Source: Bacillota bacterium (lineage in GTDB: Bacteria > Bacillota > UBA4882 > UBA10575). From it: a stretch of DNA of 42,181 nucleotides. The translations under genes and the position numbers were made by a program. The notes beneath the pieces are model-generated. The model had not been told where the DNA came from and did not search any database. It saw nothing but the letters and a program-made list of their open reading frames with translations. Each line of letters starts with the position of its first letter. Positions within the stretch are counted from its first letter, which is position 1. Shown here piece by piece: positions 18,661 to 22,555 of this stretch. The stretch covers positions 1 to 42,181 of the forward strand of contig JAAYHQ010000069.1 of assembly GCA_012727425.1 (NCBI GenBank), written 5' to 3'.

Positions 18661-19569
18661 CTACGCCATTTTTTTCCCCAATAACAGATCAAAAGCGACA
18701 GTAATACTTTTCAGTCCGCTGTGGATGATCGCCGCGATTTTCTCTTGATCCGCATTCCAAGTCAAAGGGGTCATCTTGATGAGGTGTTCCAGGTTTTCCT
18801 CTTTGAGGAATACCTGATAATGAATCTGTTGATCTTTAATAAGTTGAAAGCTGTTGGCAAAAAGTCTCTTTACGCCGTCATTTTCGTACAACTCTTTATC
18901 GGTTCCCTTAAAGAGAATCTCCCGTAGTTCAATCAGGTAGTTGGGAGCAGGCAGGATCTTAATTAGTATACCATGGTCTTTTAAAACGCGCTTAAATTCT
19001 CCGTAATTGGCCGGCGAAAGAATATTAAGGACAATATCGAATTGCCGGTCCTGGAGCGGGAGCTTTGTCAAGTCAGCTACGCACCAGATGAGTTCCTGGT
19101 ATTCTTTAGCCGCGAGCCGGATCCCTTCTTTCGAAAGGTCAATCCCAACCCCGAGTATATCGGTAAACCCCTTCTTCTTGGCCTTCAAATCCTGCCAAAT
19201 CCAAGCCAAATGTGACCCCTCACCACAACCCGCATCCAAAATACGGGCCGCCGCCCATTCTTCACCCTTCCCCACTTCCCAAATCAGCTTACTAATGGCT
19301 TTCCGCATAGGGTCGAAAAAACCACTGTCGCCGATCACTTTCCGGGCGGCAAACAACTGCTTATCATAACCGCCTTTTTCTTGTTTCAGAAGCAGATTGA
19401 CATAACCTTGTTTCGCCAGGTCATAATTGTGTCCTCTAGAACAATGAAGACTGTTTGACCTGCTCAGGCCAAGTTCCTGTTCGCAAACCGGACAGCGAAA
19501 GAGACCGCTGTTCTTTAGAATCAATTCTTTCGCCGAATCAATCTTTTTCCTCTCATTACCAGATGCCAT
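18661..19569 (-). CDS. rlmA: RlmA-type 23S rRNA (guanine-N1)-methyltransferase
   Basis: A 302-residue SAM-dependent methyltransferase of the RlmA(I)/RlmA(II) family, which methylates G745 or G748 in helix 35 of 23S rRNA. RlmA(II) (TlrB) can give resistance to tylosin. The N-terminal zinc finger is present (FRCPVCEQEL, then LHCSRGHNYD), followed by the family-typical KQGYVNLL. The SAM motif I is ILDAGCGEGSH. Further Rossmann elements are DILGVGIDLSKEGIRLA and FDIVLNILSPANYGEFKRVL. The ATG at 19569 lies ten bases after a G-rich Shine-Dalgarno sequence. Which of G745 or G748 is the target cannot be read here. Confidence 0.9.
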   Translation of the reverse strand: MASGNERKKIDSAKELILKNSGLFRCPVCEQELGLSRSNSLHCSRGHNYDLAKQGYVNLLLKQEKGGYDKQLFAARKVIGDSGFFDPMRKAISKLIWEVGKGEEWAAARILDAGCGEGSHLAWIWQDLKAKKKGFTDILGVGIDLSKEGIRLAAKEYQELIWCVADLTKLPLQDRQFDIVLNILSPANYGEFKRVLKDHGILIKILPAPNYLIELREILFKGTDKELYENDGVKRLFANSFQLIKDQQIHYQVFLKEENLEHLIKMTPLTWNADQEKIAAIIHSGLKSITVAFDLLLGKKMA

Positions 19570-19901: not shown

Positions 19902-21638
19902 ATGAGTAACCATGATTTGGCCAATCTCTTTAACCAAATTGGAACCCTGCTGGAACTCAGAGGAGAAAATCCGTTTAAAGCCAGGACCTATTACAAGGCC
20001 GCCCGGACCATTGAAAATTTAGGGACCGATCTGGACGATATAATCCGTAATGACCGGTTAAAAGAGATCCCCGGTTTTGGTCCAGCCATCACCCAAAAGA
20101 TCCTTGAATGGAAAGAAACCGGGACCATCAGCTATTATAAAAAGCTGAAAGAAACTACTCCTCCGGGCTTGTTGGATCTGCTGCGCGTACCCGGTCTCGG
20201 TCCCAAAAAAATAGCCGTCCTGGCTTCGACCCTGCAAATCACCAGCCTGGATCGGCTGGAAGAGGCCTGCCGTGAAAACCAGTTACTTACTGTCCCCGGG
20301 TTTGGCCCTAAAACACAGGCAAAAATCGCCGCCGGCCTTGAATATATCCGGGAACAGCATGGCCGTTTTCTCTGGAGGCAGGGGATGGAATGGGCCGGAA
20401 AATTCCGGACCGCATTGGCTGCCCATCCGGCGGTCAACCAAGTGGAGATCGTTGGCAGTTTACGCCGCTGTCTACCACTGAACAGCCGCATTGACTTACT
20501 GGCCGCCTCCACTGACCCGGCAGCGGCAACCGCTTTCTTTACCAGTCCGGAGTTCGAGCGAAAACTAGAGTTGGACGGTAAAGTAGTAATCCAACAAACA
20601 GCGGAAGAAAGTATCATTATTTTCCAAAACGATTTTAAAGTACGCTTAAGCATCGTACCACCGGAAAAATTCCCCTATGCTTTATGGGCCCATACTGGTA
20701 ACGAAGGGCATAAACAGGCCTTAAGCGAACGGGCGGCGCAGCTTGGTTACCAACTCCGCCCCGACGGCCTCTGGCAAGGGACAACCCCCGTCGTCTGTCA
20801 AAACGAAGCCGAACTTTACCAAAAACTCGGTCTGGCCTACATCCCAGCCGAACTCCGGGAAAACTGCGGCGAACTGGAAGCAGCTGCAGCCGGATGCCTG
20901 CCGAAACTGGTCACTCCCGAAGACATCCAAGGCTTGTTTCATGTGCACACCAAGAACAGTGATGGTCTAAATACGTTGCGCGAGTTAGTGGAAGCCGCGG
21001 TCAGCCGGGGTTACCATTATCTTGGCATCGCCGATCATAGCCAAAGTGCTTACTATGCCCATGGTCTTACCAATGAAGCCCTCCGCCGACAGTGGGAGGA
21101 GATCGAGCAGCTCAACCGGGAGTACCCCCACTTTAGAATCTTTAAAGGGATCGAAGCCGATATTTTACCCTCCGGGGAATTGGACTATGACCCGGAGACT
21201 TTGGCCCAATTCGATTTTGTCATCGGGTCCATCCATAGCCATTTCCAGATGGGCGAAGCCGAAATGACAGAACGGATCTTAAAAGCGATGGACAACCCCT
21301 ACTTAACCATGCTTGGTCACCCGTCGGGGCGAATTTTGTTATTCCGTCCGGCCTACCCGGTAAACCTGGAACCAATCCTCCAAAAAGCAGCCGCCAAGGG
21401 AATAATCGTTGAATTTAACGCCAACCCCTTCCGGATGGACTTAGACTGGCACTGGTGCCGTCGGGCAAAAGAACTCGGAGTTTCCATTGCAATCAATCCT
21501 GACGCCCACAGCGTTGAGGAACTGGAGCTTGCCCGTCTCAGTATCCCGGTGGCCCGAAAGGGCTGGTTGGAAAAGGACGATGTGTTCAATACGAAAGCAA
21601 CCGACCAGGTCTTGGCGTACTTTTCTCAAAGACGATAG
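19902..21638 (+). CDS. polX: PolX family protein: degenerate polymerase domain plus PHP nuclease
   Basis: A 578-residue PolX-family protein. Residues about 1-150 carry the 8-kDa and helix-hairpin-helix region (EIPGFGPAI, RVPGLGPKK, TVPGFGPKT). Residues about 180-320 are the polymerase-beta-like palm and thumb. The C-terminal PHP domain (about 340-578) is a Mn-dependent 3'-5' exonuclease/phosphatase in the family. In the palm, GSLRR is kept, but the usual ET..DID becomes LPLNSRID, so the first catalytic Asp is Arg196. The third Asp position (VDLR in active enzymes) is Arg248 (VRLS). In contrast, all PHP metal ligands expected are present: H347, H349, D354, D378/H379, E418, H445, H473, D534, H536. 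It is therefore probably a nuclease with a DNA-binding but inactive polymerase domain. The ATG at 19902 lacks a strong Shine-Dalgarno. Confidence 0.9.
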   Translation: MSNHDLANLFNQIGTLLELRGENPFKARTYYKAARTIENLGTDLDDIIRNDRLKEIPGFGPAITQKILEWKETGTISYYKKLKETTPPGLLDLLRVPGLGPKKIAVLASTLQITSLDRLEEACRENQLLTVPGFGPKTQAKIAAGLEYIREQHGRFLWRQGMEWAGKFRTALAAHPAVNQVEIVGSLRRCLPLNSRIDLLAASTDPAAATAFFTSPEFERKLELDGKVVIQQTAEESIIIFQNDFKVRLSIVPPEKFPYALWAHTGNEGHKQALSERAAQLGYQLRPDGLWQGTTPVVCQNEAELYQKLGLAYIPAELRENCGELEAAAAGCLPKLVTPEDIQGLFHVHTKNSDGLNTLRELVEAAVSRGYHYLGIADHSQSAYYAHGLTNEALRRQWEEIEQLNREYPHFRIFKGIEADILPSGELDYDPETLAQFDFVIGSIHSHFQMGEAEMTERILKAMDNPYLTMLGHPSGRILLFRPAYPVNLEPILQKAAAKGIIVEFNANPFRMDLDWHWCRRAKELGVSIAINPDAHSVEELELARLSIPVARKGWLEKDDVFNTKATDQVLAYFSQRR

Positions 21639-21784: not shown

Positions 21785-22555
21785 ATGCAAAAACCCATCG
21801 AATTGGTGGTTAAAGGGAAAACCTTACGGGGGATGTACCACTGCCCAGATGGTGAGGGCATCTACCCAACCGTCATTCTTTTTCACGGTTTTACCGGTGA
21901 CAAACTGGAACCCCACCGCATCTTTCTTAAACTGTCCCGACGGTTAACGGCCAACGGGATGGCGGTGGTGCGCTTTGATTTTTCCGGTTCCGGTGAAAGC
22001 GACGGTGATTTTGAAGAGATGACCTTCGGCAGCGAGGTCTTCGAAGCGCAGGAAATCTTAAAATTCGTCAGTTATTTGCCGACCACCGATGCGGAACGTA
22101 TTGGCTTATTGGGCTTAAGCATGGGGGGCGCGGTTGCTTCCATTATTGCCGGAAAAAACCCTTCAACCGTAAAAGCATTGGTCCTTTGGGCCGCCGCCGA
22201 CATCCCAACAATGACCAGCAGACACTGGGGGAAAGAAAAAAACGGGCAATTTCTCTGTAACGAGCATGGCCAGATCGACATTGGCGGTTTATGGCTGAAC
22301 GAAAATTTCTACACTGAACTCGCCAACTGGGACACCTACGAAGCTTTAAAAGCCTACCCGGGGCCGGCCCTAATCCTTCACGGAACCGGAGATGATGTTA
22401 TACCGCCGGCAATAGCCGAGCAATACCAGGCCGCCCTCGGCGGACGAGCCCGCTTAGTTTACATTCCGGAAGCCGATCATACTTTCAACCGTCACCCTTG
22501 GGAAGAACAAGTGCTCACCGAAACAATAGTATTTTTAAAGAACACGCTCTTTTGA
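21785..22555 (+). CDS. Alpha/beta hydrolase (esterase-like)
   Basis: A 256-residue cytoplasmic serine hydrolase. The oxyanion region is FHGFTGDK, the nucleophile elbow is GLSMGG with Ser112, the acid is Asp203 or Asp204 in GTGDDVIP, and the catalytic His is 232 in ADHTF. The FDFSGSGESDG loop is typical of the BD-FAE/cinnamoyl-esterase-like and acyl-peptidase-like branch. The natural substrate is unknown; acyl or feruloyl esters are possible. ATG 21785 lies 12 bases after AAGGAG. A closer ATG at 21775 opens a 12-codon overlapping frame that may be a translational leader. It lies 146 bases downstream of polX with a TATAAT-like element at about 21710. Confidence 0.88.
   Translation: MQKPIELVVKGKTLRGMYHCPDGEGIYPTVILFHGFTGDKLEPHRIFLKLSRRLTANGMAVVRFDFSGSGESDGDFEEMTFGSEVFEAQEILKFVSYLPTTDAERIGLLGLSMGGAVASIIAGKNPSTVKALVLWAAADIPTMTSRHWGKEKNGQFLCNEHGQIDIGGLWLNENFYTELANWDTYEALKAYPGPALILHGTGDDVIPPAIAEQYQAALGGRARLVYIPEADHTFNRHPWEEQVLTETIVFLKNTLF

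Follow-up and report, generated by a model that had tools for sequence, protein, structure and literature searches.

A Bacillota PolX with arginine at two catalytic aspartate positions and a conserved PHP nuclease site: probable loss of the polymerase step within one uncultured family

What remains of a family X DNA polymerase when two of its three catalytic aspartates have become arginines and the nuclease domain at its other end is kept? This question is raised by a polX gene lying in a 42,181-nucleotide contig of an uncultured Bacillota bacterium (JAAYHQ010000069.1 of assembly GCA_012727425.1; GTDB lineage UBA4882, UBA10575), the whole of which is called the window here. The gene, on the forward strand at 19902-21638, starts with ATG, has an intact reading frame and encodes a noncanonical (RDR) PolX of 578 amino acids. 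It is assigned to the family by NCBIfam NF006375 (PolX; 446 bits, above the cut-off), and the Thermus thermophilus PolX sequence (3AU2) matched it across its whole length with E 1e-106, Deinococcus radiodurans PolX (2W9M) being a further match in the sequence search.

All domains of the family can be followed along the gene. The N-terminal 8-kDa domain (HHH_8, aa 1-75, 20126 being the last position of the segment that begins at 19902; Pfam PF14716, E 8.9e-22) precedes a helix-hairpin-helix region (HHH_5, aa 91-145, 20172-20336; PF14520, E 1.1e-13), a palm with a dead active site (about aa 153-260, 20358-20681, delimited by alignment and by the AlphaFold2 model), the fingers (about aa 261-322, 20682-20867, from alignment and PF14791 at aa 260-320) and the PHP nuclease domain (about aa 340-575, 20919-21626, from PF02811 at aa 346-505 and the invariant ligands). 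Fingers is the name used in the PolX papers for what Pfam calls DNA_pol_B_thumb; Pfam found HHH_8, HHH_5, thumb and PHP in the protein and reported no palm model for it. A single protein unites the 8-kDa and helix-hairpin-helix part, the Pol beta-like core and the C-terminal PHP domain, as is characteristic of bacterial PolX (PolX1). The structural evidence, which consists of secondary structure and of fold matches of the model, agrees with this: the AlphaFold2 model has a mean pLDDT of 90.8, mostly above 90 in the palm, and its best fold match is T. thermophilus PolX 3AU6 (Z 45.5, 558 residues, rmsd 5.1), followed by D. radiodurans PolX (Z 37.0, 470 residues, rmsd 10.1). Given this confident fold and the match to 3AU6, the palm is predicted to be folded and not collapsed.

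When the triad is mapped on T. thermophilus PolX (3AU2 sequence; D198, D200, D243), Arg196 (CGC, 20487-20489) falls on the first catalytic aspartate and Arg248 (CGC, 20643-20645) on the third, while Asp198 (GAC, 20493-20495), the counterpart of D200, is the sole triad acid retained. The alignment thereby bears out the initial annotation, which had placed the two arginines at exactly these residues and positions and had also noticed the surviving GSLRR motif (aa 185-189) and the helix-hairpin-helix repeats, now recovered by Pfam. In canonical PolX all three triad residues of the palm are acidic; in R196/D198/R248 one is, and under the definition of Prostova et al. 2022 (PMC9226535), where replacement of at least one triad acid makes the class, the RDR protein is noncanonical. 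Neighbouring carboxylates, to which the initial annotation had pointed as possible substitutes, offer no obvious replacement in the inspected strand NDFKVRLSIV: the only near acid, D244, stands at the strand start (the modelled strand around Arg248 comprises residues 245-252), where canonical relatives have Gly.

The nucleotide-binding site has changed together with the triad. Where canonical members of the class read QHFTGSKEHN, the window protein has WAHTGNEGHK, so that GS became GN, a basic residue became Glu, Asn became Lys and the steric-gate aromatic pair was lost. Substituted dNTP-binding residues (here TGNEGHK for TGSKEHN) belong to the noncanonical traits, and changes of this kind (GS to GN, basic to Glu, loss of Asn) are listed in PMC9226535 as typical of noncanonical PolX. 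Palm or fingers deletions, another common trait of the noncanonical proteins though not one used to classify them, were not found in the window PolX; the alignment has instead a palm insertion of 7 residues near aa 222-228 relative to canonical relatives.

The PHP site presents the opposite picture. The metal ligands H347, H349, D354, H379, E418, H445, H473, E504, D534 and H536 are all present and invariant in 17 relatives, as the initial annotation had seen for those ligands it could identify, and nine of them (without D354) reproduce the HHHEHHEDH consensus of PMC9226535, which makes the intact PHP active site a further noncanonical trait of this protein. In Bacillus subtilis PolX, mutation of F440, R469, R474, N498, R503 or K545 cripples the nuclease and spares gap filling (PMC6616362); their counterparts, mapped by a constant offset of 8 and not by aligning the B. 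subtilis sequence, are all present as F448, R477, R482, N506, R511 and K553. At the first PHP ligand T. thermophilus PolX (residue 342 in 3AU2) has Gln, as also noted in PMC9226535, whereas the window PolX has the His found in nearly all others.

Surveying relatives for the same substitutions, as had been proposed from the sequence, we find the arginines in company. The family of the window contains the triads RDR (the window and one relative), RDH (five sequences), SDN, RDG, QND, DAD, DND and DDD, and sampled members of the sister family have DDD. Of the ten noncanonical family members eight have Arg at position 1 and seven have His or Arg at position 3 (N, G or D in other near relatives), and the equivalent of Asp198 is kept in nine, QND being the exception. 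Since this Arg/Asp/basic pattern recurs in close relatives, it is not a product of chance or of sequencing or assembly error. The nearest named record, from the Bacillota MAG contig JAKOVI010000090.1, has the same triad as one of the family members (G008). On the tree the ten most altered PolXs form one clade (SH-aLRT 96) which the DAD sequence adjoins (99), the DDD, DND and sister-family proteins fall outside it, and the clade is separate from the D. radiodurans group; this placement beside canonical relatives indicates an independent loss, recent enough for its steps to survive. Judged from these sequences, the triad appears to have been lost stepwise inside one uncultured Bacillota family, through such states as DDD, DND, DAD, QND, RDG, RDH and RDR. 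On a larger scale, 69 of 220 PolXs, a set drawn mostly from Bacillota, are without at least one triad acid, and these fall into 28 all-noncanonical clades with 20 state changes by parsimony; triad loss in PolX is common and repeated.

Constraint on the polymerase part is relaxed and still present. Mean amino-acid distances in the noncanonical clade are 2.2 times (palm) and 1.8 times (fingers) those of the PHP domain, against ratios of 1.4 and 0.9 in canonical relatives. The NG86 pairwise dN/dS of the five closest sequences, the set relied upon since values of the wider set were saturated, is 0.17 for the palm, 0.13 for the fingers, 0.12 for the 8-kDa domain and 0.09 for both the helix-hairpin-helix and PHP regions, so the palm evolves faster yet under purifying selection. 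This residual constraint is in line with the title under which Nakane et al. 2009 appears in the reference list of PMC9226535, and according to which the exonuclease activity of T. thermophilus PolX needs both the polymerase core and the PHP domain.

Because the RDR triad, the degenerate dNTP pocket, the intact PHP site and purifying selection come together in one protein, loss of the polymerase with retention of the PHP nuclease is, as a reading of sequence, well supported. We consider it highly probable that the window PolX no longer extends DNA and that it acts through its PHP domain as an Mn-dependent 3'-5' exonuclease or in 3'-end processing, likely in Ku-dependent end joining or base excision repair. 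Extension would be abolished in an enzyme that is still of family X by descent; the 8-kDa domain, the helix-hairpin-helix region and the dead palm would be kept for holding gapped or broken DNA so that its 3' end reaches the PHP site, where ends would be trimmed, most likely in one of these two pathways; and fill-in, if any, may be left to a LigD-type PrimPol encoded elsewhere in the genome.

It would be tempting to go further and to suggest that the palm was repurposed, with the basic pair replacing the metal ions and gripping the DNA backbone as a dedicated clamp for the PHP exonuclease, which would refine the exonuclease reading and is compatible with it. The retained Arg and His/Arg in the clade, the purifying selection on the palm and the title of Nakane et al. 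speak in favour of such a clamp, but we regard it as unlikely. Replaced residues at position 3 are K, R or H in 25 of 54 sequences, a raw count that is misleadingly strong, and a first weighting that gave 0.51 basic at this position was discarded as it grouped sequences too loosely. Weighted by the 28 noncanonical clades, basic residues amount to 0.23 at position 1 and 0.35 at position 3 against a control mean of 0.18, and since several control columns reach 0.35-0.45 the enrichment is not convincing; the N, G or D at position 3 of near relatives points the same way. The compound proposal, in which the basic residues take over the charge of the metals and the family preserves the intermediates DDD, DND/DAD, QND, RDG and RDH/RDR of a passage from polymerase to nuclease, seems to us to have an equally small chance of being right.

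Still less probable is that weak polymerisation persists, either by metal-independent catalysis or at a minimal site made of Asp198 and a shifted acid such as D244. The wide retention of Asp198 would allow trace activity, several close relatives carry an acid (Asp or Glu) at the position of D244, and an older report of D. radiodurans PolX activity, cited in PMC9226535, counts against the exonuclease-only reading. However, basic residues at positions 1 and 3 should repel metal, the dNTP pocket has decayed alongside, D244 sits at a strand start where canonical enzymes have Gly, and AEE and ARE PolXs were inactive when tested (PMC9226535). A decaying pseudogene, for which one might cite the faster divergence of the polymerase part, is scarcely credible and already refuted by conservation, with a full-length frame in about ten related genomes, dN/dS far under 1 in each domain and an unvarying PHP site, and the initial annotation was right to see no random decay in this full-length protein.

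The preferred reading, a PolX that would trim ends without extending them, finds a plausible pathway in the same genome. The gene for Ku and, immediately after it, one for a minimal ligase-only ATP-dependent DNA ligase of 315 aa together occupy G000:C66:56509-58270 (the same as L148:6510-8271), a LigD-type PrimPol is encoded separately on another contig, so that the end-joining set is split, and a LigD phosphoesterase was not found in this genome; polX is not linked to any of these three genes, which counts against the reading. The presence of the three with no LigD phosphoesterase agrees with trimming of 3' ends during end joining. In PMC9226535, altered PolXs of Firmicutes co-occur in 11 of 12 cases with an NHEJ system lacking the LigD nuclease; that study defines end joining by a single protein containing both ligase and polymerase, whereas here they are separate. 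The same end-joining genes occur in canonical members of the class, which supports a role of PolX in end joining generally and not of the arginine substitutions in particular. A LigD-type PrimPol, as a gene or as a fragment, is found no more than about 1 to 4 kb away from polX in three genomes of the sister family (G025:C5:22800-23862, G019:C50:22-3871 and G022:C191:109-5593), which suggests that PolX and genes for end joining were once linked.

Among known enzymes, the window PolX shares whole-length homology and domain order with canonical T. thermophilus (3AU2/3AU6) and B. subtilis PolX, and differs from them by the two Asp to Arg replacements and the altered dNTP-binding residues. Its closer functional models may be the PolXs of D. 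radiodurans (AEE, PDB 2W9M) and D. gobiensis (ARE), polymerase-dead Mn-dependent 3'-5' exonucleases (PMC9226535), with which it has in common the lost triad, the degenerate dNTP pocket, the intact PHP site and the full 8-kDa domain; unlike them it has the triad RDR and branches in a Bacillota clade beside canonical enzymes. Many noncanonical PolXs carry palm or fingers deletions, and their absence here counts against the exonuclease-only reading. Prostova et al. 2022 found noncanonical PolX to make up 27.5% of their prokaryotic set, with many in Firmicutes, described 302 triad variants with Arg and Lys among the replacements, and inferred several independent origins; RDR and RDH are absent from the main text of that paper. 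A 2026 survey (PMC12926913) agrees with it and describes a trend to keep the PHP nuclease and drop the polymerase function, to which the window PolX conforms with palm and fingers still in place. The functional switch suggested by the initial annotation is thus very probably real, as far as sequence can tell, and it is not new to the family, having been known since 2022.

What our analysis adds is the series of triad states within one family and an estimate of the remaining constraint on a dead palm, and with them a recent and separately arisen instance of PolX losing its polymerase. As this family contains canonical, one-substitution and multi-substitution forms side by side, the order of loss and the reason for keeping the palm become testable among close relatives, while the literature already makes the general point that the nuclease of PolX is needed by bacteria more than the polymerase.

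Several minor observations concern the surroundings of the gene and single relatives. In the window polX stands between a gene for an RlmA-like 23S rRNA methyltransferase upstream (18661-19569, reverse strand) and one for an alpha/beta hydrolase downstream (21785-22555, forward strand), an order complete only in the four closest relatives. One genome of the family (G013) carries two PolXs, on contigs C148 (L003) and C3 (L053), and we rejected specialisation of paralogs, as L003 has the RlmA-PolX-hydrolase gene order seen in the window's genus, with 82-86% identity, and probably either comes from a contaminating contig or was transferred recently. Finally, a DDD polX in another genome (G020:C212:14073-15334, L062) has a broken frame and is without about aa 290-438, the first half of the PHP domain being missing, and may show the reverse pattern or be an artefact of assembly.
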